Assembly: GCF_026162645.1 (NCBI RefSeq)
Contig: NZ_JAOTBE010000008.1
Span: 1-64,000, forward strand
Direction: 5' to 3'
DNA from: Paracoccus rhizosphaerae
Lineage (GTDB): Bacteria > Pseudomonadota > Alphaproteobacteria > Rhodobacterales > Rhodobacteraceae
Length of the DNA: 64,000 nucleotides
This document shows positions 30,975 through 62,940 of the stretch, one piece after another. The position numbers and the translations under genes were made by a program. Each line of letters starts with the position of its first letter. The stretch's first letter is position 1. The notes under the pieces were generated by a model. That model did no database searches. It was not told the DNA's origin and worked only from the letters and a program-made list of their open reading frames with translations.

Positions 30975-30978
30975 ACAG

Positions 30979-33595: not shown

Positions 33596-33598
33596 GGG

Positions 33599-34950: not shown

Positions 34951-34988
34951 GGTCGCGCTATTCCTGCTAGGATGAATCGAAGAACAAC

Positions 34989-35351: not shown

Positions 35352-35583
35352 AAGGTCGCAGTTTGATCTGCCGGACAGCACCGCCATAGACGCGCCGCTT
35401 CTGACCGGCGCGGCCATCTTCGGCATGGGCTGGGGCCTAGGCGGCTTCTGTCCGGGACCCGCTTGGACATCGCTGTTGATTGGATCGTCAGGCATCCTCA
35501 TTTTCCTGCCCGCCATGCTGGTCGGGATCGTCCTCGCCGGTTTCGCCAAATCATCTTCCTCATTCGCAAGCAAAGGAGCGTAA
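35341..35583 (+). pseudogene. Truncated YedE-type (DUF6691) sulfur transporter
   Basis: The frame encodes only the C-terminal half of a YeeE/YedE-type protein: SQFDLPDSTAIDAPLLTGAAIF, then GWGLGGFCPGPAWTSLL and FLPAMLVGIVLAGF. It is clearly homologous to the intact 146-residue protein at 61191-61631, whose first ~65 residues are missing here. The junction coincides with the arsR 3' end (about 35340), as expected from a deletion or recombination. It is followed directly by the MBL and rhodanese genes, as in the intact operon. Confidence 0.8.
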
Positions 35584-35585
35584 AT

Positions 35586-36497
35586 GTGGCCGAACTGAAC
35601 GAGCCCATCGTCCGCCAATCCGCATCGACTGGGCCGAACAGCCCCGATGTCTGGGGCATCTACGAGCCCGACACCGGGTCGATCCAATATATCTGCGCCG
35701 ATCCCGCGACGAAGAAGGCCGCACTGATCGACGTGGTGCTGAACTTCGATCCGGCGCGTTTCGCGACCGATACGCGCAGCATGGAGCAGGTGCTGGGCCT
35801 TGTGGAGAAGCACGGCCTGACGGTGGAATGGGTACTCGATACGCATCCCCACGCCGATCATATGATGGCGTCGTCGCACCTCAAGAAACGGACCGGTGCT
35901 GCAAACGCCATCGGTGAAAAGGTCCGCGACATCGCCGAACTCTGGCGCGACTACTACAACACGCCGGACGCCTTCGACCCCCACCGCGACTTCGACCGCC
36001 TGTTCGCGGACGGGGATACCTTCCGCATCGGCGATCTGGACGTTCGGGTGATGCTGTCCCCGGGGCATACGCTTGGGTCGATCACCTATGTCTGCGGCGA
36101 TGCGGCCTTCGTGCACGACACGCTGATGCAGCCCGACAGCGGCACGTCCCGTGCCGATTTTCCCGGTGGCACCACCGAGGATTTGTGGAACTCGATCCAG
36201 GTGATCCTGTCTCTGCCCAAGGATACGCGGCTTTTCGTCGGTCATGACTATGGGTCCGAGGATCGCGACAGGCCGGAATGGGAAGCCTCAGTTGCCACCC
36301 ACAAAGCCAAGAATGTCCATGTCAAGGACGGCACCGACAAGGCCGACTACATCCAGACCCGCGAGGATCGGGATGCCACACTGGACCTGCCGGACCGGAT
36401 GCTCGCAGCACTTCAGGTCAACCTGCGTGCGGGGCAATTGCCCGAAGCCGAAAGCAACGGTGCGCACTACCTGAAAATGCCCGTCAACAAGTTCTGA
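35586..36497 (+). CDS. MBL-fold hydrolase, persulfide-dioxygenase-like (Blh/ETHE1 group)
   Basis: 303 residues, starting at a GTG after an AAAGGAGC ribosome site. The metal motif THPHADHMMAS is followed by SPGHTLGSITYVCGD and VGHDYGSEDRD, the iron or zinc ligands of the ETHE1/Blh branch. The enzyme oxidises glutathione persulfide to sulfite or acts in BigR-controlled sulfide detoxification. It is closely similar throughout to the protein at 61628-62545, so the two clusters are paralogous. An upstream 'longer frame' belongs to the YedE remnant. Confidence 0.9.
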   Translation: MAELNEPIVRQSASTGPNSPDVWGIYEPDTGSIQYICADPATKKAALIDVVLNFDPARFATDTRSMEQVLGLVEKHGLTVEWVLDTHPHADHMMASSHLKKRTGAANAIGEKVRDIAELWRDYYNTPDAFDPHRDFDRLFADGDTFRIGDLDVRVMLSPGHTLGSITYVCGDAAFVHDTLMQPDSGTSRADFPGGTTEDLWNSIQVILSLPKDTRLFVGHDYGSEDRDRPEWEASVATHKAKNVHVKDGTDKADYIQTREDRDATLDLPDRMLAALQVNLRAGQLPEAESNGAHYLKMPVNKF

Positions 36498-36511
36498 AAG
36501 GAGAAAGGATC

Positions 36512-36898
36512 GTGAACAAGTCCATGAAAGACCTCGTCGCGGACGCAAGATCGCGCGTCGATGGAATCGCTCCCGCTGACGCGCACAGAGCGATGGCGCA
36601 GGGAGATGTCATCCTCGACGTGCGTGAAACGGCAGAGCTGAAGAGCGACGGCGCAATCGAAGGCGCGATCCACATCCCGCGCGGGTTGGTCGAAGCACAG
36701 GCCGATCCCGAGACCGGCAAGGCGAACGAGGCTTTGGCCGCGAAACGCGATGGCACGGGCCGTGTTCACGTTCTCTGTGCGTCCGGCGCACGCGCGGCCC
36801 TTGCCGCCGACAGCCTGCGCCAGATGGGCTATGACACCGCTGTAATCGAAGGGGGTCTGGCGGGCTGGAAAGACGCGGGTCTCCCGCTTCGGGCCTAA
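36512..36898 (+). CDS. Rhodanese-domain sulfurtransferase
   Basis: 128 residues from a GTG with an AAAGGAG ribosome site. The single rhodanese domain has VILDVRETAEL and the active loop LCASGARAAL with the catalytic Cys near residue 90. It follows the MBL hydrolase by 14 bases; pairing of persulfide dioxygenase with rhodanese is typical of sulfide oxidation operons. Its paralogue lies at 62557-62940. Confidence 0.92.
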   Translation: MNKSMKDLVADARSRVDGIAPADAHRAMAQGDVILDVRETAELKSDGAIEGAIHIPRGLVEAQADPETGKANEALAAKRDGTGRVHVLCASGARAALAADSLRQMGYDTAVIEGGLAGWKDAGLPLRA

Positions 36899-36976
36899 CA
36901 CCGGTGCGAGCGCTATCGCGATATTTGCTCGGCCTCGGTTGGGACGATGCAACCCTTCCAATGACGGAGTATCACT

Positions 36977-38503
36977 GTGAGACGCCGAAAGTTCCTTAGC
37001 CTAGCCGCAGCCTCCCTCGCAACCCCAGCACTTAATATCAGCCGGGCATGGGCCGCCGAACCCGGCGCGCCTTTGCCGATACCGGAGGTTATGGAGATCG
37101 GCCCCGGCGCAGGCAACACACTCGATGCGATACGCGGAACACGCGAGTTCACCGGAGGCGCGACGTCGGAGACCTGGGGCTACTCCCAGGATTACCTCGG
37201 ACCGCTGCTGCGGTTCCGGCGCGGGCGCACCGCAAACATAAGTGTCATGAACCGTCTCGATGAACCGATCACTGCTCACTGGCACGGCATGCACGTGCCG
37301 GGCTATCTCGACGGTGGGCCGCAACTTGCTTTCGGCCCGGGCGAGACCTGGGCGCCGGAATTACCGGTCGATCACCCGGCGGCAACGCTGTTTTATCACA
37401 GCCATGTTCACGGGCGAACAGGCCCGCAGGTATATCGCGGGTTGGCGGGCATGATTGTCATCGACGACCCCGAGATCGACGATCCACTGCCGCACGACTA
37501 TGGCGTGAACGATTTTCCACTCATCGTGCAGGATCGACGCTTCGATCGGTCAGGCCGCATGACCTATAGTCTTGGCATGATGGATCGGATGCATGGGTTC
37601 CAGGGGGACCAGATCCTCGTCAACGGTGTGATCCGTCCCAAGCTTACAGTTCCGGCGGGTCTGGTACGCCTGCGTATCCTGAACGCGTCGAATGCGCGCG
37701 CGTATGATTTCCGTTTCACCGACGGCAGGCAATTCCACCAGGTCGCGAGTGACGGCGGCCTTCTGGCCCGCCCTCTTGCCATGGCCAGCCTGCAACTCGA
37801 CGGTGCCGAACGGGCCGAGATCGTGGTCGAATTCTCGGACCGGTCACCTGTTTCTCTTGTCTCGCGCGACATCGGGATGAATGGCGTGATGAACGGGGGC
37901 ATGATGGGTGACAGGGGCGGCTCCATGATGATGGGCGATAGAGGCATGATGGGCGACCGCGGCATGATGGGGATGGATGGAAACAGTGGTGCGCCGCTCG
38001 AGATCATGTCGTTTGATGTAGGCGAAGCTGCGCCCGCCGGCCCCACCCGCCTGCCCACCTCGCTGCCTTCGGATGCGCCCGCACTCGGCGATCCGGTCCG
38101 CAGGCGCAATTTCACCCTCAACATGCACACCGGGGGCATGATGCGCGGCGGCATGATGGGTGGCGGCGGCCAGACGATGGGGATCAACGGTGCACCTTAC
38201 GTCATGGATCGCATTGATGAGACCGTCCGCGCAGGCGAAACCGAGCTTTGGCGCATTAATGCCGACATGATGATGCGGCACACCTTCCACGTTCACGGGA
38301 CTTCCTTTCGGGTCGTGAGTCAGAACGGGCGGCCGGTCGACTCGGCGCAGATCGGTTGGAAAGATGTTGTCCGTGTGCAGGGTCCGACCGAAATCTTGCT
38401 GAGGTTCGACAAGCTGGCTTCGGAAGAGACACCATTCATGTATCACTGCCACATCCTCGAACACGAGGATGCGGGCATGATGGGGCAGTTTACGGTCACA
38501 TAA
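36977..38503 (+). CDS. Multicopper oxidase (CueO-like), Met-rich insert
   Basis: 508 residues beginning at a GTG. A Tat signal (RRRKFLSLAAASLATPAL) leads into a three-domain oxidase. Copper motifs are AHWHGMHVPG, FYHSHVHGRT, HTFHVHGTSF and the C-terminal YHCHILEHEDAGMM. Between about residues 303 and 335 is a Met/Gly/Asp-rich insert with repeated GDRGMM, and another at HTGGMMRGGMMGGG. Such inserts bind Cu(I) in CueO. It probably oxidises Cu(I). No regulator is adjacent. The start could also be further downstream, but the Tat motif supports 36977. Confidence 0.9.
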   Translation: MRRRKFLSLAAASLATPALNISRAWAAEPGAPLPIPEVMEIGPGAGNTLDAIRGTREFTGGATSETWGYSQDYLGPLLRFRRGRTANISVMNRLDEPITAHWHGMHVPGYLDGGPQLAFGPGETWAPELPVDHPAATLFYHSHVHGRTGPQVYRGLAGMIVIDDPEIDDPLPHDYGVNDFPLIVQDRRFDRSGRMTYSLGMMDRMHGFQGDQILVNGVIRPKLTVPAGLVRLRILNASNARAYDFRFTDGRQFHQVASDGGLLARPLAMASLQLDGAERAEIVVEFSDRSPVSLVSRDIGMNGVMNGGMMGDRGGSMMMGDRGMMGDRGMMGMDGNSGAPLEIMSFDVGEAAPAGPTRLPTSLPSDAPALGDPVRRRNFTLNMHTGGMMRGGMMGGGGQTMGINGAPYVMDRIDETVRAGETELWRINADMMMRHTFHVHGTSFRVVSQNGRPVDSAQIGWKDVVRVQGPTEILLRFDKLASEETPFMYHCHILEHEDAGMMGQFTVT

Positions 38504-38785
38504 CAGGACCCCACCCGCTCGACACCGGGCGTCGTCAAGAGCTTACGTCTTCTTGCGGCGTTCTATCAGGTGCCGGTGTCGCCTTGTTGAAACGCATTAC
38601 GGAGTATGTCTAGACCCGAACGGAGAACACCTCGCTAAGCTGCGGGTCCGCCGAAGCGGCCGTTCAGTCGCTCGGCAGCATTCGTCAAAAAGGGCTCTTT
38701 GCGTCGCGTGACAGGCGCGTCCAGCTCGCCGCCATGCGAGGCCCGCCTGTAGAGCGGCGGCAGGCTGGAAAGCTTCACCCTCAAG
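38504..38785. other. Spacer at right edge of cargo island
   Basis: No complete gene. A minus-strand frame ending near 38635 carries RRASHGGELDAPVTRRKEPF and could be a gene remnant, but I recognise nothing in it. The sequence stops at the point where leader-repeat homology (copy C) begins. Confidence 0.4.
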
Positions 38786-51722: not shown

Positions 51723-52125
51723 GTGGACAGGTGTCCACCATGGCGCAGCCCCTCCTCCATGCAGGCCAGCACCGGGGGCATCATCGCCAGCCTCTGCCAC
51801 CGCCGGCCATTTTGTGCAGGCAGCCGAGCGACGGGCAAGCCTCCGGGAGGCGACGGTCAAGCTCCGGCAGTTGAAAGGGCGGCACCTCGGGTGCCGATCC
51901 TCTCTCCCCCTTCATCCGCGCGATCTTCCCGCAGAGGGCGGCGAGGGTGCTAATGGAAAATTGGGGCAGGCATGAGGAAGGATGGGCGCTTATTACGTCG
52001 ATCCTTCCACGCTCTCTGAACGTCAGCCTAGAAGATCAGGCAGCTCGCGATGGCCGGCCGCGACAGCTCAGGCTCTGTCAGAAGAACAAAGTTTTTTGAC
52101 AGTGCTTTGGCGAGGCTTGATCGTA
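51723..52125. other. Intergenic region after virD4
   Basis: No convincing gene. Frames present here have poor starts and no recognisable product. The region from 52090 onwards is AT-richer and forms the relBE promoter region. Confidence 0.45.
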
Positions 52126-52137
52126 TCTCAATTGAGA
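52126..52137. promoter_or_regulatory. relBE operator palindrome
   Basis: TCTCAATTGAGA is a perfect 12-bp palindrome, 33 bases upstream of the relB start codon and overlapping the likely promoter. RelB-type antitoxins autoregulate at such short palindromes. Confidence 0.6.
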
Positions 52138-52169
52138 CGCATGTTGGTTGCAGAACCGGAGGATACGCC

Positions 52170-52463
52170 ATGCCCGCCCAGACCTCGATGCTTCATGTTC
52201 GCGTTGACGATCATCTAAAAGCGCAAGCAGCCGACGCCTTGGCCGCTGTCGGGCTTACTCTTTCGGATGCCGTGCGCATCCTGTTGACCCGCGTTGCCGC
52301 CGAAGGCGGTTTGCCCGCCGGGTTGACAGCAGATCCGGATGCCTATGACGTTTGGTTCCGCGCCAAGGTTCAGGAAGCCTTGACCGATCCACGCCCGGCC
52401 ACGCCGCACGACGAGGTGATGCGAGATGCTCGTGCCATGATCGACGACAAGCGCCGTGCTTGA
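52170..52463 (+). CDS. RelB/DinJ-type antitoxin
   Basis: 97 residues. The RHH N-terminus SMLHVRVDDHLKAQAADALAAVGLTLSDAVRILLTRVA is characteristic. A flexible C-terminus follows (PATPHDEVMRDARAMIDDKRRA). Start ATG 52170 has GGAGGA upstream. It overlaps the toxin gene by 8 bases. Confidence 0.92.
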   Translation: MPAQTSMLHVRVDDHLKAQAADALAAVGLTLSDAVRILLTRVAAEGGLPAGLTADPDAYDVWFRAKVQEALTDPRPATPHDEVMRDARAMIDDKRRA

Positions 52464-52731
52464 ACTCGAATGGAAGGCTCCGGCAATCGCGGACTTGCTG
52501 GCGATTGTCGACTATATAGCGGACGACAACCCGGATGCCGCTCTGGCTCTGATGGACGAGATACATAGGAAGGTGGCGCAGCTCCCCGCCCATCCGAAAC
52601 GCTGCCGACCTGGCCGGGTGGATGGTACGCGGGAGTTGGTGGTCCGGCCGAATTACATCGTGGTCTATGCCGAGACCGCAGCGGCGATAACTGTGCTGCG
52701 TGTGCTCCATGCTGCGCAGATGTGGCCATGA
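52456..52731 (+). CDS. RelE/ParE-family toxin
   Basis: 91 residues from a GTG inside the antitoxin gene. The fold is indicated by LEWKAPAIADLLAIVDYIADDNPDAAL, then PGRVDGTRELVVRPNYIVVYAE and the final VLRVLHAAQMWP. This is the ParE/RelE toxin family. Target (ribosome or gyrase) cannot be decided from sequence. Confidence 0.92.
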   Translation: MLELEWKAPAIADLLAIVDYIADDNPDAALALMDEIHRKVAQLPAHPKRCRPGRVDGTRELVVRPNYIVVYAETAAAITVLRVLHAAQMWP

Positions 52732-52921: not shown

Positions 52922-53542
52922 TCATGGTCGTGCCAAGGTCTCCCGGGCCCGACCGATCAAGGCCCGCATGTCGTCCAAGCTGTACTCGCCAAAAGCTCCC
53001 TCGTCGCCGGCGATGAAGCTGGGCGTGCCCATCAGTCCCATGTGATCCCCCAAAAGGAAGCTGTTGGTGATGTGTCGCTCCACCTGTTCGGCCTGCATGT
53101 CCTGCTGAAGACGTGCCAGATCGAGGCCTGCCTCTTTGGCGGCCTGCAGGGCGGTGTCGGCACCGGCTCTGCCACGAATGGCGAACATGGCCCGATGCAT
53201 CTGCCAATACCGGCCCTGCTGAAGAGAGGCGAGCGACGCACGCGCCGCCGCTTCCGAGTCGGCCCCGAACACCGGCCATTCATGGAAGACGACACGCAGG
53301 TTTGGATCAGACAGTATCAGGCGATGGATCGGATCAACCATCTTGCGGCAGAAGGGGCAGTTGTAGTCGAAGAACTCGGTCAACGTCACATCGCCATTGG
53401 GGTTTCCGAGGACAGGGGCGGTCGGATCGTGCTCCAGCACCTGTCTCAGTTCCTCAGGCATGGGATTGTCCCGTGCCGCGAGGGCAACGGTGGGCAGGAC
53501 CAGCAAGCCGGTGCTGGCGATCAGGAAGTTTCGACGGTGCAT
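52922..53542 (-). CDS. DsbA/ScsC-like periplasmic thioredoxin
   Basis: 206 residues. Tat-like or Sec signal (RRNFLIASTGLLVLPTVALA), then DsbA fold with active site FFDYNCPFCRKMV near residue 63 and MGTPSFIAGD (cis-Pro). It resembles ScsC/DsbG-type proteins with similarity to the product at 59076-59711. A tandem GCTTAAG box lies about 60-80 bases upstream, the same as in front of dsbD. It runs divergently from the rest of the cassette's plus-strand genes. Confidence 0.9.
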   Translation of the reverse strand: MHRRNFLIASTGLLVLPTVALAARDNPMPEELRQVLEHDPTAPVLGNPNGDVTLTEFFDYNCPFCRKMVDPIHRLILSDPNLRVVFHEWPVFGADSEAAARASLASLQQGRYWQMHRAMFAIRGRAGADTALQAAKEAGLDLARLQQDMQAEQVERHITNSFLLGDHMGLMGTPSFIAGDEGAFGEYSLDDMRALIGRARETLARP

Positions 53543-53603
53543 TCTTCAACCTCAGACAGTTCGACGCGCTCTCGCGCAGGATCGTCGGAGGCTGGCTGCC
53601 CAA

Positions 53604-53621
53604 GCTTAAGGGCGGCTTAAG
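53604..53621. promoter_or_regulatory. Tandem GCTTAAG box upstream of the DsbA-like gene
   Basis: GCTTAAG at 53604-53610 and again at 53615-53621, an 11-bp period. Identical spacing and sequence occur at 55688-55705. Tandem direct half-sites about one helical turn apart are typical of OmpR-family response regulators, and one is encoded between the two boxes. Confidence 0.65.
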
Positions 53622-53633
53622 GGGTGTGGGGGG

Positions 53634-54968
53634 TCAGACGGATGACAGTGGCAGAGCGATTGTCACGTCTTGCCCGCCATTGCCGCTGCCCAGCTCCATC
53701 CGTCCGTCTATGCGCTGGACGGCTGCCGCAACGATTGCCAGGCCGAGCCCGCTGCCATGGACTTCCCGGCCGGGACCACGCCAGAAGCGGTCCGTGACCC
53801 GGTCCCGGTCCTGAGGCCGGATACCTGGACCTTCGTCGCGGACGCTCAACACCACGAATGCCCCATCACAGGATGCAATCAGCGTGACCGTCCCGCCTTG
53901 AGGGGAATGTTGGATCGCGTTCTCGACGAGGTTGCGCAGAGCGCTGTGGACCAGGATGCGCGGCGCCGCGAGTGGCGGGAGGTCCTCGGCATGCACGTCG
54001 AGGCGCACCTCCCGGGGACGTGCCTGATCCTCGGCTTGCTGGGCAATCTCGGAAAGCAGGGCAGCCACGTCCAGTCGTTCGACCGAAGCCGCGTCCTGAT
54101 CGATGGCTGTCAGGTCCAGGAGCTGGCGCACCATCCGGTCGGTGCGGTCAACGGAGGTCGTGATGGTGGCCAGAGCCCGGTCGCGCACTGCCGGATCGGA
54201 GGTCATCCGGGCGATCTGCGCGTGGGTCCGCAGCCCGGCCAGGGGCGTCTTCAACTCGTGTGCCGCAAATGCCGTGAAGTCCCTCTCGGTCCTGCGAACA
54301 CTGTCAAGACGCTGGAACAGGCTATTCAGCGCCCGGCGCACCGGCCGGATCTCACGTGGGTCGCCAACTCCCACCAGCGGGCTCAGGTCGTCCGGCTTGC
54401 GGTTGCGCAGAGTGCTTTCCAGATGCGCCAGTGGCGTAAGTCCGCGGCCGACGCTGACCCAGATCAGCAGCGCGAGCGCAGGAAAAACCACCACCAGCGG
54501 CCAGAGAAGCCCCTGCACCACATCGCCCACCAGGCGATCGCGCACCTGGATCCGGTCGCCTACCATCACCCGCACCCCCACGTCGGGATTCACCACGGTG
54601 AAGACACGCCAAGGCTCGCCTTCGATCAGAGTCGTGGCAAAACCTTCGCCCTCGGACAGCCTTTGATCGGGCGCTCCGGAAGAGGCCCCGAGCAAATTTC
54701 CTCGGAGCGACCAGATCTGGCAGGACAACTGGCGCGAATACTCTCCCGCCCCCGGCAGCGCGATGGTGGCCTGCGCCCCGGCCTCATCGAGTGCAATGCG
54801 CCGGTCCGCCATGAGGGAGCTGACCATGTTCGCCGCCTCCGCGAGCCGGGCATCGAGCACCTGCTCGACCTGCGCACGTGTGGAGACGTTGATCCACAAT
54901 GCTGCCGATAACCAGATCGCGCTGGTGGCAAGTGTCAGAATGAGAATGAGGCGCAGGCGGATCGACAT
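53634..54968 (-). CDS. Sensor histidine kinase (QseC-like)
   Basis: 444 residues. Two membrane helices (about residues 6-28 and 154-177) flank a periplasmic sensor domain. The H-box is FAAHELKTPLAGLRTHA, the N-box LRNLVENAIQHSP and the G-boxes DEGPGIRP and GSGLGLAIVAAA. Its start overlaps the response-regulator stop by 1 base. It presumably senses periplasmic metal or redox stress and regulates the Dsb/LDT cassette (inference). Confidence 0.92.
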   Translation of the reverse strand: MSIRLRLILILTLATSAIWLSAALWINVSTRAQVEQVLDARLAEAANMVSSLMADRRIALDEAGAQATIALPGAGEYSRQLSCQIWSLRGNLLGASSGAPDQRLSEGEGFATTLIEGEPWRVFTVVNPDVGVRVMVGDRIQVRDRLVGDVVQGLLWPLVVVFPALALLIWVSVGRGLTPLAHLESTLRNRKPDDLSPLVGVGDPREIRPVRRALNSLFQRLDSVRRTERDFTAFAAHELKTPLAGLRTHAQIARMTSDPAVRDRALATITTSVDRTDRMVRQLLDLTAIDQDAASVERLDVAALLSEIAQQAEDQARPREVRLDVHAEDLPPLAAPRILVHSALRNLVENAIQHSPQGGTVTLIASCDGAFVVLSVRDEGPGIRPQDRDRVTDRFWRGPGREVHGSGLGLAIVAAAVQRIDGRMELGSGNGGQDVTIALPLSSV

Positions 54969-55642
54969 CAGTCGGCCCCTCCTTTGCTGGCCGGAACGCA
55001 ATAGCCGAGGCCGCGCACGGTCTGGATTAGGTCGCGGCCCAGCTTGGCGCGCAGATGATGGACATGCACCTCGACAGTGTTGCTTTCAACATCTTCCTGC
55101 CAGCCATAGAGACGCTCTTCCAACTGCGCCCGCGACAGGATGCGGCCCGGGTGCTCGACCAGCGCGTGCAGGATGGCGAACTCGCGCCGCGACAGGCGCA
55201 GGCGGATGCCCTCTCGGCTGGCAGTCATCGCGGCCGGGTCGAGTTCCAACCCGCTCCAGTGCAGGACAGGGCTTGCCCGCCCACCCTGCCGGCGCAGCAT
55301 GGCACGGACCCGGGCCGCCAGCTCGTCAAGATCGAAGGGCTTGCCGAGATAATCGTCCGCACCCCCGTCGAGGCCGGCAACCCGGTCCCGCACCTGGTCT
55401 CGCGCCGTCAGCAGCAGCACTGGCAGCGTGTTGCCCTTCGCCCGCATCTCCGCCAGAAGATCGGTGCCCATTCCATCCGGCAGCATGATGTCCAAGACGA
55501 TGCCGGCGAACTCGCTGTGCTCGAGTGCGGCGCGTGCATCTGCCAGGTTGCCCACTGTATCGGCTGTAAATCCTGACAAGCCCAGCCCGACGGACAGCCC
55601 TTCCGAAAGCACCGGATCATCTTCAACGATCAGCAACCGCAT
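54968..55642 (-). CDS. OmpR-family response regulator (QseB-like)
   Basis: 224 residues. Receiver domain with VEDDP near residue 6, phospho-acceptor Asp in GIVLDIMLPDG near 51 and the Lys in DDYLGKPFDL. The winged helix C-terminus includes ESNTVEVHVHHLRAKLG and TVRGLGYCV. It likely binds the tandem GCTTAAG boxes. Start at 55642 rather than further upstream, where the extension is non-homologous. It is divergent from dsbD. Confidence 0.93.
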   Translation of the reverse strand: MRLLIVEDDPVLSEGLSVGLGLSGFTADTVGNLADARAALEHSEFAGIVLDIMLPDGMGTDLLAEMRAKGNTLPVLLLTARDQVRDRVAGLDGGADDYLGKPFDLDELAARVRAMLRRQGGRASPVLHWSGLELDPAAMTASREGIRLRLSRREFAILHALVEHPGRILSRAQLEERLYGWQEDVESNTVEVHVHHLRAKLGRDLIQTVRGLGYCVPASKGGAD

Positions 55643-55687
55643 CACGGGGCCCTCCCTGCGTTCATGTCTGGCGGTGTGACGCGCCAA

Positions 55688-55705
55688 GCTTAAGCCTCGC
55701 TTAAG
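55688..55705. promoter_or_regulatory. Tandem GCTTAAG box between response regulator and dsbD
   Basis: GCTTAAG at 55688-55694 and 55699-55705. The pair lies 46-63 bases upstream of the response regulator start and 24-41 bases upstream of dsbD. It is the counterpart of the box at 53604-53621, so the regulator probably controls itself and dsbD. Confidence 0.65.
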
Positions 55706-55728
55706 CTGGCCTCCTTAGCCGCAGCACC

Positions 55729-57540
55729 ATGATGATGCGAATCCTATGGGCGGCGCTCGCCGCGTTGACATTCTGGAGCGGTATGGCGCTTGCGCAGCCT
55801 GCTCCGCCACTCGATCCCTCTGACGCGTTCGTGCTGAGCGTGACGCCTGACGCGGCGGGCGGCCTGCAGATCGCGTGGGACGTGCAGCCGGGGTATTACC
55901 TGTATCGCAGCAAGATCGAAGCCTTCGATGTTGACGGTGCAGCCATTCCCCTCATCTTGCCCGAGGGTGAGGTCTATGACGACCCTTGGATGGGACGCGA
56001 CGAGATCTATCGCGCGCCGATTGCGACGACGATCCCCGATCCTCGGGGGGCTGTCACCCTGCACTGGCAAGGCTGCCAGCAGGACGGTATCTGTTATGCG
56101 CCCCAACAGGTGGTGCTGGAGACGGACGGGACGGTCCGTGCCGAACAAGTTGCTGAAGCCGAAGCTTTCGGATCCTGGCGCGCGGACGGCAACGCTCCGC
56201 AACCCGGCGCGCCTGACAGCGCGACCTCCGAGGGGCAGGACGGGCTGAAGCTCGCCAAAGAGGAGGGCCTCGTGGCCGACTTGGCTGGCCGGGGCGGCGT
56301 TGTGTTCGTTCTGCTGGGCTTTTTCGGCTTCGGGCTGCTGTTGTCTCTGACGCCATGTGTGTTGCCGATGGTCCCCATCGTCGCCGGAATGCTGACCCGC
56401 CGGGGCAGCGGGATGACTGCGGGGCGAGGGCTGGCACTCACCGGTGCCTATGTTGTCGCAATGGCCTCCGCCTTCGGGCTGCTTGGGGTCGTGGCGGCCT
56501 GGTCTGGAGCCAACCTGCAAGCCACGCTGCAATCGCCCTGGGCCATCGGCGTCATCGCGGCGATTTTCGTGATGCTGGCGCTGTCAATGTTCGGCCTGTT
56601 CGAGCTGCAGATGCCAACACGCTGGCAGGCCCGTCTGGCACAGCGTCCGAACTCTGCCGGATCGTTGGGCGGAGCGGCGGTGCTCGGTTTCGGCTCGGCG
56701 CTCATCGTCGGCCCTTGTGTGACGGCACCGCTGGCGGGGGCATTGATTTACATCGCGCAAACTGGTGACGTGGCCTTGGGTGCCACGGCTCTCTTCGCGC
56801 TCGGGCTTGGACAGGGAGTACCTCTGCTGGCGGTGGGGGCTTTCGGCCCGCATATCCTGCCCCGCCGCGGGGCCTGGATGGAGCGGGTCAAGCTGGCCTT
56901 TGGCGCGGTTTTCCTGGGAATGGCGATCTGGCTGGCCGGGCGCATCCTGCCGGGACCTGCGGTTCTGGCGCTATGGGCGGCACTGCTGACGGGCTGCGGG
57001 GTCGCGCTCGGCGCCTTGGACCGCCTGGCACCGGACACCCCGCGCGGCCCGCGCATGGTGTCGGCCGCAGGCCTGCTGCTGGTCTTCGCAGGTCTGGTGC
57101 AGGGCCTCGGTGCGGCCCTTGGTGCCGATGATCCGATGCGGCCCCTGGCTCCGTTGGCCAACCGGGTGGCGCAGGTATCGCCGGATCAGCCGTCGTTCCG
57201 GACCGTGACCACGCAAGCCGGACTTGATGCCGCGCTGCAGGGATCACAGCCCGCCCTGATCTATGTCACCGCCGACTGGTGCGTGACCTGCCGCGCCATT
57301 GAGCGGGGACCAATGTCCGATCCGCAGGTCAAGGAGGCCCTGAACGACTTGGTGCGCATCAAAGTGGACGTGACCGATTTCACAACGGAAGCGCAGGCCC
57401 TGATGACAAGCCTTGCCGCCGCAGGTCCGCCGACGATGATCTTCGTGGATGCGGCACGGTCCGAGCCGCAGAGCAGCCGTCTTGTCGGCGACGTGGAGAC
57501 ACCGGATCTTCTCGCCTCTATCGCCAAGGTCGTCGAATGA
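55729..57540 (+). CDS. dsbD: DsbD/ScsB-like transmembrane disulfide reductase
   Basis: 603 residues. Signal peptide, then an N-terminal periplasmic domain with redox pair CQQDGIC near residue 110. Eight membrane helices follow, with Cys in LTPCVLPMVP and VGPCVTAPLAG. The C-terminal thioredoxin-like domain has ADWCVTCRAIERG. It delivers cytosolic electrons to the DsbA-like and TlpA-like proteins. Start among three consecutive Met codons is unclear. It overlaps the next gene by 4 bases. Confidence 0.93.
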   Translation: MMMRILWAALAALTFWSGMALAQPAPPLDPSDAFVLSVTPDAAGGLQIAWDVQPGYYLYRSKIEAFDVDGAAIPLILPEGEVYDDPWMGRDEIYRAPIATTIPDPRGAVTLHWQGCQQDGICYAPQQVVLETDGTVRAEQVAEAEAFGSWRADGNAPQPGAPDSATSEGQDGLKLAKEEGLVADLAGRGGVVFVLLGFFGFGLLLSLTPCVLPMVPIVAGMLTRRGSGMTAGRGLALTGAYVVAMASAFGLLGVVAAWSGANLQATLQSPWAIGVIAAIFVMLALSMFGLFELQMPTRWQARLAQRPNSAGSLGGAAVLGFGSALIVGPCVTAPLAGALIYIAQTGDVALGATALFALGLGQGVPLLAVGAFGPHILPRRGAWMERVKLAFGAVFLGMAIWLAGRILPGPAVLALWAALLTGCGVALGALDRLAPDTPRGPRMVSAAGLLLVFAGLVQGLGAALGADDPMRPLAPLANRVAQVSPDQPSFRTVTTQAGLDAALQGSQPALIYVTADWCVTCRAIERGPMSDPQVKEALNDLVRIKVDVTDFTTEAQALMTSLAAAGPPTMIFVDAARSEPQSSRLVGDVETPDLLASIAKVVE

Positions 57541-58343
57541 ACGCGATCTCCATCGGTCCCTTCGCCTTTGACGCATCCCGTCTGGCAGCAGTCGCGTCGA
57601 TCCTGCTGTTCCTCGTGATTATGGAGCTGGGGGCCCGGTACGGCCGCCAACATCAGCGGAACCTTGGGGCTTGGGCCGGTTGGCTCGTGCTGGCCTGGAT
57701 CCTGGGGGCACGAGCCGGCTTTGTGATATCCCACTGGGGCGACTTTGCTGCATCACCGCTGGACGCGTTCAAGCTCTGGCAGGGTGGTTTTTCTGCATGG
57801 GCGGGGTGGCTGGCAGCAGGCGCCGTCCTGTTTTGGGCCCTTCTGCGAGGGCACGGCGCAGTCCTGCGTCCGGTCCTGATCGCTGTCGCAGTGGCGGTCG
57901 TCGCGCATCAGGCGATCACGGCGGCGCTGCCCCGTCCGCAGATGCGCCTGCCGCCGATGGAGCTTCTTGCTTTGGACGGCACGCCCGTCCAGTTGTCCGG
58001 AGGGGGCCAGGTGACGGTGTTGAACCTCTGGGCCACGTGGTGTCCGCCATGTCGCCGAGAGATGCCAATGATGACCGAACTGGCGGCCGAGTTGCCGGAG
58101 GTCAGGTTCGTCTTCGCCAACCAGGGCGAGCGCGCGGATCAGATCTTTGCCTTTCTTGCGGCCGAGAGCCTGCCGCTGAGCGGGATGCTGCGCGATCCGC
58201 AAGGGCACCTGATGAGCCGGCTGCGCGCCGTGGGGCTTCCCAGCACTCTGGTGTTCGATGAGCAGGACCTGCTGGTCGCAGCCCATACCGGCGAGATCTC
58301 CCGCCCCGCACTCCGCTCCCTGATCGAGACTGCAAAGGAATGA
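57537..58343 (+). CDS. Lgt-like membrane domain fused to TlpA thioredoxin
   Basis: 268 residues. The first ~135 residues resemble the N-terminal half of prolipoprotein diacylglyceryl transferase (IGPFAFD, LGARAGFVISHWGDF, WQGGFSAWAGWLAAG), but the catalytic HGG is replaced by AWAG, so transferase activity is unlikely. The C-terminal domain is a TlpA-type thioredoxin with ATWCPPCRREMP near residue 165 and AVGLPSTLVFD. The membrane part probably only anchors the thioredoxin. Coupled to dsbD; the next gene starts 1 base after its stop. Confidence 0.85.
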   Translation: MNAISIGPFAFDASRLAAVASILLFLVIMELGARYGRQHQRNLGAWAGWLVLAWILGARAGFVISHWGDFAASPLDAFKLWQGGFSAWAGWLAAGAVLFWALLRGHGAVLRPVLIAVAVAVVAHQAITAALPRPQMRLPPMELLALDGTPVQLSGGGQVTVLNLWATWCPPCRREMPMMTELAAELPEVRFVFANQGERADQIFAFLAAESLPLSGMLRDPQGHLMSRLRAVGLPSTLVFDEQDLLVAAHTGEISRPALRSLIETAKE

Positions 58344-58344
58344 C

Positions 58345-59079
58345 ATGACACAGCTTCTGAGGGTGTTTCTGGCCGGAACAGCTTTGCTGGCGATGGCTGC
58401 CTGCGAGCCTGCCTCGCATGTGACCGAGGCACCGCCCGCCGCCCCCGCGCCGCCTCCGGTCCGGCCGGAAACTGCGGCCATGTATGCCGCACAGGATGAC
58501 GGGAACCTGACCGTTCCCGCCATTCCCGAGAGCCTGCTGACCGAGGACAAGGCCCGGCAGCTGGTGGACTACTGGACCGAAGAACCTGTCGGCACCATCA
58601 TCGTCGATCCTCATGCCAGGCGGCTTTATCATGTACAGCCCGGCAACAAGGCCATGCGCTATACCGTGGGCGTGGGCGCCGCAGGCTACGGCTTCACCGG
58701 CGAGGCGCATATCCCCTATCAGCGTGATTGGCCCCGCTGGACCCCCACCGACAGCATGCTGGCCGAGAACCCCGAGCAGTACGGCCCCTCGGCGGCCGGC
58801 GTAGAGGGTGGGCTCTCGAACCCAATGGGCGCGCGAGCGCTCTATATCCACAACAGCGGCGGCGACACCTTCTACCGCATCCACGGCACGCCCGACCCGC
58901 AGTCGATCGGCACTGCCAGTTCGGCCGGATGCATTCGCCTGTTCAACCAGGACATCATCCACCTGGCCGAGAATACCCGCAGCATGAGCAAGGTCGTGGT
59001 TCTGACGCAAGCGCAGTCGGGACGGGGAACAACGCCGCCCGCCGCACAGATGCCGACCGCCACCGGAGGACCGACATGA
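58345..59079 (+). CDS. L,D-transpeptidase, lipoprotein
   Basis: 244 residues with a lipobox (LAMAAC). The YkuD domain has GTIIVDPHARRLYHV and the catalytic region IHGTPDPQSIGTASSAGCIRLFN, with the Cys near residue 190. It forms 3-3 cross-links in peptidoglycan or attaches proteins. Embedded between Dsb-type genes; the active-site Cys would need a reduced periplasmic environment. Overlaps the next gene by 4 bases. Confidence 0.92.
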   Translation: MTQLLRVFLAGTALLAMAACEPASHVTEAPPAAPAPPPVRPETAAMYAAQDDGNLTVPAIPESLLTEDKARQLVDYWTEEPVGTIIVDPHARRLYHVQPGNKAMRYTVGVGAAGYGFTGEAHIPYQRDWPRWTPTDSMLAENPEQYGPSAAGVEGGLSNPMGARALYIHNSGGDTFYRIHGTPDPQSIGTASSAGCIRLFNQDIIHLAENTRSMSKVVVLTQAQSGRGTTPPAAQMPTATGGPT

Positions 59080-59711
59080 CCCTTGACCGCAGAACGTTTC
59101 TCGCCGCCGGTGCTGGCGCCGGTGTCGTGGCGCTTGGTGGCGGAGCATGGACACTGCTGCGTCAGTCCGGCCGCGCGGGCGAGCCGAGCGTCGACGACGT
59201 GCTTCATGATCCCGATCAGCCTGTCCTGGGCAACCCGCAAGGGGATCTCACCATTGCCGAGTTCTTCGATTACCAGTGCCCGTTCTGCAAGCGCGGCCAT
59301 CCTGATCTCATGGACGAAGTCGAAGCCGATGGAAACATCCGCCTGGTGATGAAGGACTGGCCGATCTTCGGAAGCGCTTCGGTTCTTGCCGCGCAAATGG
59401 TGCTGGGGGCAGCAGATCCGGAACGCTATGCGGCGGCGCAAGCAGCGCTGATGGCAACGCCTGCACGTCTGACCGAGGAAGACGTGCGGACGACCTTGGC
59501 CGCAGCCGGCCATGATCCTGACAGGATGCTGGAAATCTATCGACAGGATCGGCAACGGTGGGACGGGCTGATGGGCCGCAATGCACAGCAGGCGGCCGCC
59601 CTTGGTCTGCAGGGTACCCCGGCCTTCATCATCGGCCGCACCATTCACGCTGGCGCGCTGGACCGGGACCGCCTGCGAGCGGCCATCGCCGCAGCGCGCA
59701 GCGGCGCCTGA
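59076..59711 (+). CDS. DsbA/ScsC-like periplasmic thioredoxin
   Basis: 211 residues with a Tat-like signal (DRRTFLAAGAGAGVVALGGGAW). DsbA fold with FFDYQCPFCKRGHP near residue 65, and GLQGTPAFIIG. Similar to the product at 52922-53542. The start ATG overlaps the LDT stop (ATGA). It may be the oxidant, isomerase or reductase partner for the transpeptidases or other exported Cys proteins. Confidence 0.9.
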   Translation: MTLDRRTFLAAGAGAGVVALGGGAWTLLRQSGRAGEPSVDDVLHDPDQPVLGNPQGDLTIAEFFDYQCPFCKRGHPDLMDEVEADGNIRLVMKDWPIFGSASVLAAQMVLGAADPERYAAAQAALMATPARLTEEDVRTTLAAAGHDPDRMLEIYRQDRQRWDGLMGRNAQQAAALGLQGTPAFIIGRTIHAGALDRDRLRAAIAAARSGA

Positions 59712-59744
59712 ACCCGATTTCTCACAACCAAGAAGGAGCAGAAG

Positions 59745-60293
59745 ATGAACAAAGTTTCACGCCGTCGGATGATGGGGCTGATCACAGTCGGCGGCCTGGC
59801 CGCACCGGTCGTGGCGCGGGCGCAATCGGGGCCGGATCGCAACATCAGCAGTTTCACCATGCAGCGCTGGCAGGATCATTTTGACGAACTGGGGCTTGGC
59901 GCCATCGTCGCCGATACCGGTTCCCGCGCATTGCATTTCTGGTCAGGGGATGGGGAGACCTATCGGACCTATCCCACCTCCGTTCCCATCTCGGAGGAAC
60001 TGACGAAGCGCGGCTATACCGAGATCGTGCGCAAGAAGGAGGGTCCCAGCTGGACGCCCACCGCCTCGATGATGGAGCGGTTCCCTCACTACCGCCCGAT
60101 GGGCCCCGGCCCGGACAATCCCCTGGGCACGCATGCGATGTATCTGTCCTGGCCCGCCTACCTGATCCACGGGACACATGACACGCGCAAGATCGGGCGG
60201 CTGTCGTCTGATGGCTGCATCGGATTATACAACGAGAAGATCGAGGAGCTGTTCGGGATGTGTCCCGTCGGCACACAGGTCCGGATCATCTGA
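59745..60293 (+). CDS. L,D-transpeptidase-like protein, altered Arg motif
   Basis: 182 residues with a Tat-like signal (SRRRMMGLITVGGLAAPVVA). YkuD domain with YLIHGTHDTRKIGRLSSDGCIGLYN; the catalytic Cys is present but the usual Cys-x-Arg reads Cys-Ile-Gly. Activity is therefore uncertain. It is on the plus strand 33 bases after the DsbA-like gene, with GGAG upstream, so it is probably the last member of the cassette. Confidence 0.85.
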   Translation: MNKVSRRRMMGLITVGGLAAPVVARAQSGPDRNISSFTMQRWQDHFDELGLGAIVADTGSRALHFWSGDGETYRTYPTSVPISEELTKRGYTEIVRKKEGPSWTPTASMMERFPHYRPMGPGPDNPLGTHAMYLSWPAYLIHGTHDTRKIGRLSSDGCIGLYNEKIEELFGMCPVGTQVRII

Positions 60294-60327: not shown

Positions 60328-60642
60328 TCAGATGTCCTTGCAGAAGGCCTCGTAAAGGGCCGCCATCAGCACCTCGAGATCCGGATCGCTGATCCGGTAG
60401 TGGATCGTCTGGCTCTCGCGGCGCGTTTCCACCATGCCCGCCTCGCGCAGCTTGGCCAGATGTTGGCTCAGGGCCGACTGGCTCAAGCCCACCGCTTGCT
60501 GGAGCGCGCCGACCGAGCGCTCACCCTTGGCCAGTTCACACAGGATCAAGAGGCGCTTGGCATTGGCGACCAGTGCCAGCCGTCCGGCAACATAGTCGGC
60601 TCGCTCTTGCAGAACCTGCGAAGCCTGATCGTCCAGTTCCAT
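60328..60642 (-). CDS. bigR: BigR/SqrR-type ArsR repressor (sulfide/persulfide sensor)
   Basis: 104 residues. Winged HTH with AKRLLILCELAKGERSVGALQQAVGLSQSALSQHLAKLREAGMV. The two Cys used by BigR/SqrR as a persulfide or disulfide switch are present: Cys in LILCEL (about residue 35) and near the C-terminus (EAFCKDI). Start chosen at 60642 (AAGG upstream); an alternative ATG at 60672 lies inside the operator. It is divergent from the sulfide operon. Confidence 0.88.
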   Translation of the reverse strand: MELDDQASQVLQERADYVAGRLALVANAKRLLILCELAKGERSVGALQQAVGLSQSALSQHLAKLREAGMVETRRESQTIHYRISDPDLEVLMAALYEAFCKDI

Positions 60643-60679
60643 TATATTAGCCTTGACTGATTTAGTATTCATTAATATA
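60643..60679. promoter_or_regulatory. BigR-type operator
   Basis: AT-rich inverted repeat TATATTA (60643-60649) and TAATATA (60673-60679) around TTGACT, between bigR and yeeE. BigR/SqrR operators are AT-rich dyads with TATATTA-like arms overlapping the promoter. Expected to derepress with persulfide. Confidence 0.6.
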
Positions 60680-60732
60680 TAGCACTGCAAGGGCGACGAG
60701 GCAAGTGTCGCCGCATTGATTGGAGAGCGGGA

Positions 60733-61191
60733 ATGGAGATGGAAATACAAACTGCGTTTACGCCATGGGCGTCTCTTGGCGGCGGCGTGCTGATCGGGTT
60801 GAGCGCGGTAATGGTGATGGGGATCTTCGGCCGCATCGCCGGGATCTCTGGCATCACGCAAGGCGCTGTGGGCGGCATCCTGCCGCTGCGCGGCGCGCCG
60901 AAGGACCGGGACTGGCGGTGGGCCTTTCTGCTGGGACTGCTGGCGGCGCCGATGCTTATCATGGCGGCGGGCGGAACCGTGGCGCAGACAGTTCCGCAGA
61001 ACCTGCTGGCAATGGCCATCGCCGGGCTTCTTGTCGGCCTCGGGACGGCGCTCGGCTCGGGCTGCACCTCGGGCCATGGGGTATGCGGGTTGGCACGGCT
61101 GTCGGGCCGGTCGCTGGTCGCCGTCGCGACCTTCATGACGACGGGCTTCATTACGGTTTTCCTTCTTCGCCACGTCCTGGGGGGAGTGTGA
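60733..61191 (+). CDS. YeeE/YedE-type sulfur transport protein, N-half
   Basis: 152 residues with about four or five membrane helices. The redox/thiosulfate-transport motif is GSGCTSGHGVCGLARLS. Together with the next protein (DUF6691) it probably moves thiosulfate or another sulfur species across the membrane. Stop overlaps the next start by 1 base (TGATG). Confidence 0.88.
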   Translation: MEMEIQTAFTPWASLGGGVLIGLSAVMVMGIFGRIAGISGITQGAVGGILPLRGAPKDRDWRWAFLLGLLAAPMLIMAAGGTVAQTVPQNLLAMAIAGLLVGLGTALGSGCTSGHGVCGLARLSGRSLVAVATFMTTGFITVFLLRHVLGGV

Positions 61192-61631
61192 TGCGCATTC
61201 TGTGGGGCTTTCTCAGCGGGCTCGTCTTTGGGCTGGGGCTGGTGATCTCGGGCATGGCCAACCCAGCCAAGGTGCTGAACTTCCTCGATCTGGCAGGAAG
61301 CTGGGACCCGAGCCTGGCCTTTGTGATGGGCGGGGCTACCGTCACGGCGTTCATCGGCTACCGCTTGGTCTGGCGGCGTCGGGCGCCGGTCCTTGACCAA
61401 ACCTTCGACATTCCCACGGGCCGCAGCATCGACAGACTGCTGGTCACCGGGGCGGCGCTTTTCGGGATCGGTTGGGGGATCGGCGGCTTCTGCCCGGGCC
61501 CGGCCTGGACCGCTCTCCCTCTTCTGGCACCGGGAACATTGATCTTCCTGCCGGCCATGCTGGTTGGCCTGTGGGCTGGCGCCTGGATCAAGGGCTTGGG
61601 GCTTCTCAACACAAAAGGAGCAGCAACATGA
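61191..61631 (+). CDS. YedE-type (DUF6691) membrane protein
   Basis: 146 residues, with four or five helices. Contains GMANPAKVLNFLDLAGSWDPSL, FGIGWGIGGFCPGPAWT and IFLPAMLVG. It is the partner half of YeeE. Overlaps the MBL gene start by 4 bases. Its intact N-terminus identifies the missing part of the pseudogene at 35341-35583. Confidence 0.88.
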   Translation: MRILWGFLSGLVFGLGLVISGMANPAKVLNFLDLAGSWDPSLAFVMGGATVTAFIGYRLVWRRRAPVLDQTFDIPTGRSIDRLLVTGAALFGIGWGIGGFCPGPAWTALPLLAPGTLIFLPAMLVGLWAGAWIKGLGLLNTKGAAT

Positions 61632-62545
61632 GCAATTCGAACCTCCAGCAGCCGGTCGTGCGCCACTCGCCGTCGCGGGGGGCAGGCAGCCCCGATGTCT
61701 GGGGCATCTACGAGCCGGATACCGGATCGATCCAGTATATCTGCGCGGACCCGGCCACGAAGAAGGCGGCGCTGATCGATGTCGTCTGGAACCTGGACCC
61801 GAAGAACTATCGTTTCTCGACGGACAGCATGGAGCAGGTCCTGGACCTGGTGCAGCAGAACGCCTTGAGCGTCGAATGGATCCTAGACACGCATCCCCAT
61901 GCCGATCACGTCATGGCCTCTGCGCTTCTGAAGGAGCGCATCGGCGCGCCCACCGGCATTGGTGAGAAGGCCCCGGATATCGCAAGCATCTGGGCCGGTC
62001 TCTACAACCTCCCTGATGCCTTTGATCCGGCTCGCGACTTCGACCGACTATTCGTTGAGGGCGAGATCTTCCGAATCGGCGATCTTGAGGTGCGGGTGAT
62101 GCTATCGCCCGGCCACACGCTCGGCTCGATTACCTATGTCTGCGGCGACGCCGCCTTCACACATGACACGTTGATGCAGCCTGATGTCGGTACTTCGCGC
62201 GCGGACTTCCCCGGCGGCACGACTGAGGAGTTGTGGGACTCGATCCAGGAGATCCTCGCCCTGCCGGGCGAGACACGCCTCTTTGTCGGCCACGACTACG
62301 GCACCGAGGAGCGTGACGAGCCGGAATGGGAAGCCACCGTGGCCGAGCACCGTGCCGGAAACCGTCACGTCAAGGACGGCACCCGGCGCGAAGACTGGAT
62401 CACGCTGCGCAACGAGCGGGACGCCACCCTGGCGCTGCCCGACCGGATCCTGGCCGCGTTGCAGATCAATCTGCGCGGCGGGCGCCTGCCTGCGGCCGAA
62501 GAAGATGGCAACAACTACCTGAAGATCCCGGTCAACCGCTTCTAA
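61628..62545 (+). CDS. MBL-fold hydrolase, persulfide-dioxygenase-like (Blh/ETHE1 group)
   Basis: 305 residues. The metal motif THPHADHVMAS, then SPGHTLGSITYVCGD and VGHDYGTEERD. Nearly collinear with the product at 35586-36497 and clearly homologous through the whole length. Likely converts persulfide to sulfite with glutathione, under BigR control. Start overlaps the previous stop (ATGA). Confidence 0.9.
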   Translation: MSNSNLQQPVVRHSPSRGAGSPDVWGIYEPDTGSIQYICADPATKKAALIDVVWNLDPKNYRFSTDSMEQVLDLVQQNALSVEWILDTHPHADHVMASALLKERIGAPTGIGEKAPDIASIWAGLYNLPDAFDPARDFDRLFVEGEIFRIGDLEVRVMLSPGHTLGSITYVCGDAAFTHDTLMQPDVGTSRADFPGGTTEELWDSIQEILALPGETRLFVGHDYGTEERDEPEWEATVAEHRAGNRHVKDGTRREDWITLRNERDATLALPDRILAALQINLRGGRLPAAEEDGNNYLKIPVNRF

Positions 62546-62556
62546 GGAGACTGAGC

Positions 62557-62940
62557 ATGACCATGACCATGAAACAGCTTGTCGAGGACGCCCGCAGCCG
62601 TGTTACGGCGGTCTCGCCCGCCGATGCCGCAAGGGCAGCCGAGCAGGGCGATCTTGTTCTCGACGTGCGCGAACCGGCGGAACTGGAAACGGACGGGCGC
62701 GTGCCGGGCGCGCTGCATGTGCCGCGCGGCATTCTGGAAACACGCGCCGATGCCACCACCGCGACCGCAGTGGCGCAATTGACCGGTATGCGCGGCATGG
62801 GACGGGTGCATGTCCTTTGCGCCTCTGGCGGCCGTGCGGCGCTGGCCGCCGATACGCTGTGCGTCATGGGGTATGAGGCCGACCTCATCGAAGGTGGCTT
62901 GTCCGCCTGGAAGGCCAACGGCCTTCCCGTCGAGGGCTGA
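62557..62940 (+). CDS. Rhodanese-domain sulfurtransferase
   Basis: 127 residues with LVLDVREPAELETDG and active loop LCASGGRAAL. Preceded by TAAGGAGA. It is homologous to 36512-36898 and follows the MBL gene by 11 bases. Transfers sulfane sulfur in sulfide detoxification. Confidence 0.92.
   Translation: MTMTMKQLVEDARSRVTAVSPADAARAAEQGDLVLDVREPAELETDGRVPGALHVPRGILETRADATTATAVAQLTGMRGMGRVHVLCASGGRAALAADTLCVMGYEADLIEGGLSAWKANGLPVEG

Follow-up and report, generated by a model that had tools for sequence, protein, structure and literature searches.

Which function do Dsb-type thiol proteins fulfil when their genes are interleaved with those for L,D-transpeptidases (LDTs)? This question is raised by a 64,000-nucleotide stretch of Paracoccus rhizosphaerae plasmid DNA (contig NZ_JAOTBE010000008.1, positions 1 to 64,000; hereafter the window), which at 52922-60293 carries a cassette of eight genes encoding two DsbA-like proteins (A and B), a sensor histidine kinase, a response regulator, DsbD, a fusion of an LGT-like membrane domain with a TlpA-type thioredoxin and two LDTs (LDT1 and LDT2). 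To our knowledge, biochemical work has established protection of periplasmic LDT cysteines in a single case, that of E. coli DsbG, where the genes are scattered. We propose that the cassette is a thiol-stress regulon, in which the two-component system controls the LDTs together with a periplasmic reducing chain that would keep the LDT cysteines reduced. To this proposal as a whole we assign an even chance, the pairing of LDTs and Dsb proteins as a regulon being well supported and enzymatic repair of the LDTs being what we infer from it.

Conserved linkage of Dsb genes and L,D-transpeptidase genes

The initial annotation had made its pairing of thiol proteins with LDTs depend on a co-occurrence of such LDTs with scs-like genes in other genomes, and a search for this co-occurrence shows a linkage that goes beyond chance and is conserved in Rhodobacterales and Hyphomicrobiales. 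We scanned an alignment of LDT1 relatives across one genome per species, which yielded at least 592 relatives, and kept the best 80, each with flanks of at most 10 kb. According to our own hidden Markov models, 20 of these 80 loci contain a DsbD and/or a DsbA-like gene and five more only the kinase/regulator pair known from the cassette. The 20 include loci from Paracoccus, Palleronia, Sagittula, Rhizobium, a Brucella relative, Falsochrobactrum, Kaistia, Methylobacterium, Aquabacter and Bosea; in two of them (L084, L093) the genes are ordered differently or kilobases lie between the Dsb genes and the query LDT. As a control we used 40 YkuD regions, seven from the P. rhizosphaerae genome, which include all eight of its LDTs outside the window, and 33 from 14 other alphaproteobacterial genomes, short contigs being skipped; none of the 40 shows a match to DsbD, DsbA-like proteins or TlpA within ~6 kb. 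Ten hand-picked annotated plasmid loci show the same linkage, with exceptions: a lone LDT1 on a P. aestuarii plasmid (L044), for which genome G324, having the same stretch, contains the full cassette elsewhere (L184), an LDT2 of Rhodobacter CZR27 accompanied by kinase/regulator only (L043), and an LDT2 within a copper cluster on D. shibae pDSHI03 (L042).

In a tree built from 150 LDTs, the label Dsb-linked changes 18 times compared to a mean of 41.0 changes upon shuffling, none out of 500 shuffles being as low, and the supported branches force at least eight changes. In Rhodobacterales the second cassette LDT falls into the LDT2 clade, in Hyphomicrobiales into a different LDT clade. The changes on the tree and the different clades of the second LDT together indicate that the pairing of LDTs and Dsb genes was gained or lost repeatedly.

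A common regulatory box

Comparison of 28 intergenic regions, extracted between the divergently transcribed regulator gene and the gene that opens the cassette, reveals an exact CTTAAG-N5-CTTAAG box in all 28, shuffled regions having a mean of 0.0, with the spacer sequence varying from locus to locus. For S. typhimurium, PMC3973317 gives the PmrA box as CTTAAG-N5-xTTAAT, so the cassette box fits a PmrA-type box and is a predicted site for the regulator. The P. rhizosphaerae genome (4.06 Mb) contains three boxes and no copy of the reversed pattern; two are in the cassette (53605 and 55689), and the third, on contig C131 (C131:6433, L219), precedes an ORF of 499 codons which has no Pfam match and reaches the end of the stretch read.

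Placement of the box in further genomes connects it to the same genes. Among 149 Rhodobacterales genomes 24 boxes occur in 19 genomes, 17 of them beside an LDT, DsbA or DsbD gene, one beside a regulator alone and six elsewhere. Leaving out the four genomes that were the source of the motif, 10/16 boxes are beside LDT/Dsb genes, one beside a regulator and five elsewhere; none of these 16 sites with their flanks is in the named loci used earlier, and two of the ten share a genus (G301, G303). The loci with longer flanks contain 48 boxes, i.e. the 28 promoter boxes and 20 further ones, of which 15 are located within 350 bp upstream of an LDT, DsbD, DsbA or DsbG gene, four precede SoxB-like, CcoN-like or cytochrome genes, these families having been sought only after the boxes had pointed there, and one precedes none of the genes sought. 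Two otherwise solitary LDTs (L074, L076) each have a box.

On plasmid 1 of P. denitrificans PD1222 we observed a minimal set of a box, an LDT2-like ORF and DsbA-like A (L040, 7766-9188), the LDT2-like ORF missing from a gene table which is itself incomplete. SoxB-like proteins are encoded directly behind a box at L048 (954-2405) and L049 (3798-5228), scoring 315 and 294 bits with a cut-off of 550, and these genes are possibly a sulfur arm of the regulon.

The spread of targets bears on an alternative explanation, according to which kinase and regulator respond to envelope stress in general and have parallel outputs, the LDTs stiffening the wall and the Dsb proteins handling mis-oxidised proteins with no enzyme-substrate tie between them. 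In its favour are boxes preceding SoxB-like, CcoN-like and cytochrome genes and four loci (L052, L064, L081, L082) that have kinase, regulator, box and LDT and no Dsb gene in their flanks, the left flank of L064 spanning only 5.5 kb. However, the genes for LDTs and Dsb proteins are in one operon with overlaps or minimal gaps, and DsbG, a known LDT partner, directly follows a boxed LDT in two relatives, so that we judge parallel outputs to be rather unlikely.

DsbG in relatives and the ScsC-type protein of the window

The pairing of thiol proteins and LDTs put forward in the initial annotation is reinforced by the common box and by three relatives in which DsbG occurs together with the box. At L056, the protein encoded 38 bp behind a box is a DsbG according to model NF008657 (335.8 bits, cut-off 124); L059 and L072 show the order box-LDT-DsbG, DsbG being called there by similarity to the L056 protein. 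E. coli DsbG is reported to interact with periplasmic transpeptidases and to shield single cysteines from sulfenylation (Depuydt 2009, as summarised in PMC3526765).

Neither DsbA-like protein of the window matches the DsbG equivalog model NF008657. Both have a CPFC motif, a Thr preceding the cis-Pro and a twin-arginine start, and in an alignment of 22 DsbA-like proteins the two arginines, both cysteines and the GTP sequence are invariant in all 22. A twin-arginine signal, called by eye, is also present in LDT2, and these signals suggest export in folded form. DsbA-like B takes the position in the window that DsbG has in these relatives. Its predicted structure (mean pLDDT 89.6) has a fold most similar to that of a Silicibacter protein and of the ScsC proteins from Salmonella, Caulobacter and Proteus (Z 24-27), DsbG being farther away (Z 17). 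As 3gyk, 4gxz, 7rgv and Proteus ScsC rank top by sequence as well as by fold, an ScsC-type catalytic domain is assigned to DsbA-like B, which, like Salmonella ScsC, is not long enough to include an N-terminal trimerisation stalk.

An invariant cysteine in the sensor domain of the kinase

The initial annotation described the cassette as having a QseBC-type sensor. All eight genes are intact ORFs according to ORF calls and profile matches, but kinase and regulator are far below the NCBIfam cut-offs, the kinase reaching 243 bits for QseC (cut-off 475) and 166 for PmrB (cut-off 314), the regulator 224 bits for PmrA (cut-off 330) and 214 for QseB (cut-off 345). A single conserved cysteine within the motif C-Q-[IV]-W is found in 39/39 distinct high-scoring sensor domains of the kinase family, placed between two membrane segments by a topology assigned by eye. 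None of the 18 other kinase matches in the P. rhizosphaerae genome aligns across this region, and therefore E. coli QseC and three weak matches were used as control. These four weakly similar kinases are devoid of C-Q-[IV]-W; in three of them, among these E. coli QseC, the aligned part contains no cysteine, and the fourth has two cysteines elsewhere. The invariant periplasmic cysteine is a natural candidate for the residue sensing the signal.

Two distinct L,D-transpeptidases

Both LDTs have the active-site cysteine ascribed to them before, LDT1 within SAGCIR and LDT2 within SDGCIG, but LDT2 deviates from the usual motif in having no Arg and contains a second cysteine. In LDT1 the only cysteine apart from the catalytic Cys belongs to the lipobox, and its catalytic motif SxGC[hydrophobic]R is present with S, G, C, I and R invariant in 8/8 aligned sequences. 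LDT2 has a Gly in place of the Arg that follows the catalytic cysteine in LDT1 and in the solved LDTs 4lzh and 9tyw, and this Gly (GC[IVF]G) occurs in 42/42 distinct LDT2 relatives from a list selected by similarity. LDT2 as query matches 284/295 genomes of the family, often repeatedly, some matches being other LDTs.

The second cysteine of LDT2 (codon at 60261) is 15 residues past the catalytic one. It is present in 13/17 distinct LDT2s linked to Dsb or kinase genes compared to 6/25 unlinked ones (p = 0.0014), a comparison with only two independent supported pairs and many unlinked loci having just 1.5 kb of flank. A redox switch in LDT2 may be considered as a lead, and kinship among the LDT2s may account for the association.

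Gene organisation and neighbourhood of the cassette

The features are compiled in Table 1. The DsbD cysteine pairs sit where its three domains would have them. Neighbouring genes on the plus strand overlap by 4 bp or are separated by 1-33 bp, and hence DsbD, the TlpA fusion, LDT1, DsbA-like B and LDT2 likely form a single operon. The distance between the box and the DsbD start codon is only 23 bp (55706-55729), which makes a leaderless DsbD transcript possible; by eye, a TCTTTAG/TCCTTAG-like stretch is seen between box and DsbD start in Paracoccus.

Table 1. Features of the cassette and of the adjoining persulfide module, in window coordinates (the Pfam YkuD cut-off is 23.4 bits, exceeded by both LDTs).
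Feature	Position	Strand	Remarks
DsbA-like A	52922-53542	-	CPFC, twin-arginine signal; Pfam DSBA 69 bits, Thioredoxin_4 58.7 bits
Box CTTAAG-N5-CTTAAG	53605-53621		exact match; 63 bp upstream of DsbA-like A
Sensor histidine kinase, QseC/PmrB-like	53634-55001	-	HATPase_c, HisKA, 2CSK_N
Invariant periplasmic Cys codon of kinase	54720-54722		ORF residue 94
OmpR-type response regulator, PmrA/QseB-like	54968-55642	-	ATG start placed; ORF open to 55687
Box in divergent regulator/DsbD promoter	55689-55705		exact match
DsbD	55729-57540	+	Cys pairs 116/122, 210/330, 518/521; NF001419 454 bits, cut-off 330
LGT-like membrane domain + TlpA-type thioredoxin	57537-58343	+	CPPC; Pfam LGT 30.7 bits, AhpC-TSA 47.5 bits
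LDT1	58345-59079	+	lipoprotein-type signal, catalytic Cys 196 in SAGCIR; Pfam YkuD 59.2 bits
DsbA-like B, ScsC catalytic-domain type	59076-59711	+	CPFC, Thr-cisPro, twin-arginine signal
LDT2	59745-60293	+	twin-arginine signal, catalytic Cys 158 in SDGCIG, second Cys 173; YkuD 69.7 bits
BigR-like repressor	60328-60639	-	
YeeE-type	60733-61191	+	
DUF6691	61197-61631	+	
Blh-type dioxygenase	61622-62545	+	
Rhodanese	62542-62940	+	

Adjoining the cassette on the other side is a toxin-antitoxin pair of the RelB/DinJ-RelE/ParE type (52114-52731), which is 81% identical to a P. zhejiangensis pair. A second thiol/metal cluster at 28846-38697 encodes CcdA, DsbE, TlpA, two cation transporters and a cytochrome P450; ~7 kb of it share 92-98% identity with plasmids from Paracoccus, Sagittula, Sulfitobacter and Marinibacterium, so the cluster is probably a recently mobile element.

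Sulfur and copper as stress contexts

The persulfide module at 60328-62940 adjoins the cassette and contains no box. Its BigR-like (90.8 bits, cut-off 155) and Blh-type (396 bits, cut-off 625) proteins are homologues rather than equivalogs, the Blh-type match covering model positions 139-423 of 423, and its association with the cassette is argued from other genomes. In the 80-locus set, homologues of PDO, BigR or Blh are near 14/25 linked loci (Dsb or kinase/regulator) compared to 1/55 solo loci, the sole exception, L080, being a 4-kb contig with an LDT that groups with that of the linked locus L093. Pooling all sets gives 14/40 linked and 1/109 unlinked LDT loci; comparison of phylogenetic pairs gives only four independent supported pairs, with on average 1.5 in agreement and no pair in disagreement. 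Seeds for sulfur and for copper genes were picked after viewing the annotated loci L041-L048 and the window, which biases these counts toward the sulfur genes there. PDO/BigR/Blh genes are found at none of the six cassettes in the Rhodobacterales genome set and at none of the nine loci to which only the box had led. A universal sulfide theme, for which the 80-locus set speaks strongly, failed in these two sets and is kept as one natural context. A Pfam scan covering 96 of 101 picked ORFs flanking 15 sulfur-free cassettes reveals no other shared neighbour family in more than 3/96 ORFs.

The sulfur genes might alternatively be the key to the whole cassette, its thiol proteins serving sulfur oxidation and its LDTs being passengers or wall strengtheners under sulfur stress. 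SoxV/SoxW, the reductants of SoxYZ, provide the model for such a function, and both the sulfur-gene counts near linked loci and the SoxB-like proteins whose genes follow a box in L048 and L049 point in this direction. Yet no PDO/BigR/Blh homologue is near the 15 further Rhodobacterales loci, among box targets LDTs by themselves already outnumber sulfur genes, and the SoxB-like matches are under the NCBIfam cut-off. We therefore regard this explanation as improbable.

For copper, the initial annotation had proposed a plasmid with a copper island on which redox proteins protect or reactivate copper-inhibited LDTs. Copper genes are indeed present at ~5.6-18 kb of the window, but some 38 kb from the cassette, with plasmid backbone and conjugation genes in between. 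A copper-specific system of this kind could draw on the Cu(I) binding of ScsC relatives reported in PMC8900818, on copper inhibition of LDTs, which is in print as judged by a title (Peters 2018, cited in PMC12729407), on the LDT2 relative among copper genes in D. shibae and on copper homologues (P-type ATPase, multicopper oxidase, CueR; seeds all from one locus, L042) near 4/25 linked and 3/55 solo loci of the 80-locus set. The pooled counts of 6/40 linked and 5/109 unlinked loci, including a weak multicopper-oxidase match (L281) and a locus counted twice among the linked ones (L053 = L185), are not significantly enriched (p = 0.07), p values for neighbour genes being only a guide because the loci are not independent and the flanks differ between sets. 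Together with the distance of the copper island this led us to reject copper as the organising theme. At L042 (9983-15563, D. shibae pDSHI03) the LDT2 relative and a DsbA family gene are located amid cytochrome c, multicopper oxidase and CueR genes, and this stretch, which has neither a box nor a kinase of this family, is a separate copper context by its gene content. A copper-specific system thus has little chance of being correct. For Acinetobacter, PMC7315123 reports that sulfide stress raises proteins handling copper and discusses persulfidation of thiolates in the periplasm; such a link could unite the sulfur and copper contexts.

A model for redox control of L,D-transpeptidases

These data are consistent with a model according to which an attack on periplasmic thiols would modify the single periplasmic cysteine of the kinase, reactive sulfur species being the best supported trigger and oxidants or copper being possible ones. 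The regulator would then bind the CTTAAG-N5-CTTAAG boxes and activate the cassette with its extra LDT copies. DsbD would pass cytoplasmic electrons to TlpA and the ScsC/DsbG-like proteins, and the latter would reduce the LDT catalytic cysteine when sulfenylated, persulfidated or in a mixed disulfide. A more specific version, which we hold as tentative and somewhat short of an even chance, envisages a self-contained, horizontally mobile regulon, in which the Cys-sensing kinase induces LDTs along with their private reductase chain (DsbD with an ScsC-like protein or DsbG), i.e. the E. coli DsbG-LDT relation cast as an operon, with reactive sulfur as one trigger and those cassette LDT2s that have a second cysteine maybe redox-switched.

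Several observations weigh against the thiol-stress regulon. Salmonella ScsC, which also is without the N-terminal stalk, is reported in PMC8900818 to be neither an oxidase nor an isomerase and to bind Cu(I), and because of this reported binding a role for copper stays conceivable. LDT2, a YkuD protein with Gly in place of the usual Arg, might not be a standard transpeptidase. Cassette-free LDT1 relatives are common (55/80), so LDTs can manage without the cassette, and the persulfide genes are missing from the six cassettes and nine box-found loci mentioned above. Regarding the box, the reversed control pattern is commoner in the 149 Rhodobacterales genomes (50 versus 24), and for this reason the placement of the box, not its number, constitutes the evidence. 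No exact box is found in cassettes without a divergent regulator (L041, L046, L047, L053/L185, L093, L182). In a class-wide sample 26/289 genomes contain the box, with 27 sites outside the P. rhizosphaerae genome; none of the 25 of these sites that were read is beside LDT or Dsb genes, showing that the regulon is not general in Alphaproteobacteria.

Comparison with known systems

The cassette shares features with several described systems. With QseBC/PmrAB it has in common a 2CSK_N-type kinase, an OmpR-type regulator and a tandem CTTAAG-type box with a 5-bp spacer at its own promoter; it differs in scoring below the equivalog cut-offs, in an invariant cysteine that E. coli QseC does not have and in box targets that mostly are LDT and Dsb genes. 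Another two-component system, HprSR, controls MsrPQ. Two-component control of periplasmic protein repair would be common to both, but MsrPQ mends Met sulfoxide (PMC9302797), whereas the cassette is proposed to act on cysteines by means of Dsb proteins. The bigR operon, described in PMC5823870 with BigR, Blh and TauE, resembles the persulfide module of the window in its BigR-like repressor and Blh-type dioxygenase; in contrast, the window module matches the dioxygenase part of Blh only, has a separate rhodanese gene and carries YeeE/DUF6691 in place of TauE.

Scs clusters (scsABCD; suppressor of copper sensitivity) also bring together DsbD-type, ScsC-type and TlpA-type proteins. Different from these, the cassette encodes a DsbD equipped with DsbD_N and additionally comprises a pair of LDTs as well as kinase and regulator, and DsbA-like B leaves no room for the trimerisation stalk of Caulobacter and Proteus ScsC. 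We class the cassette as neither DsbG-DsbD nor Scs, since the window contains no DsbG equivalog, the ScsA/ScsB models not having been run. In the open-access literature we found no description of such a cassette, which is no proof of novelty, no paper on ScsC together with D-transpeptidase, and no joint paper on D-transpeptidase and 'DsbA family', two-component and sulfide; four papers combine D-transpeptidase, copper and DsbD, none of them presenting such a cassette in its title or the opening of its abstract.

In bringing together a readable site, a candidate for the sensor cysteine, the client and the reductase, such a conserved regulon puts LDT protection within reach of direct tests, as to what attacks the LDT cysteine in nature, by which means the attack is sensed and whether cross-linking by LDTs requires a reductant of their own. 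The box moreover offers a sequence tag for finding redox-dependent LDTs elsewhere. The closest parallel is the E. coli DsbG/DsbC-DsbD system (Depuydt 2009, as summarised in PMC3526765), which shares with the cassette DsbD, a CxxC reductase with Thr-cisPro and LDT cysteines as clients and, in three relatives of the cassette, DsbG itself preceded by the box. Compared to E. coli, the reductase of the window is ScsC-like instead of DsbG, and the cassette joins the presumed client LDTs, their reductase and a dedicated two-component system in a mobile regulon.

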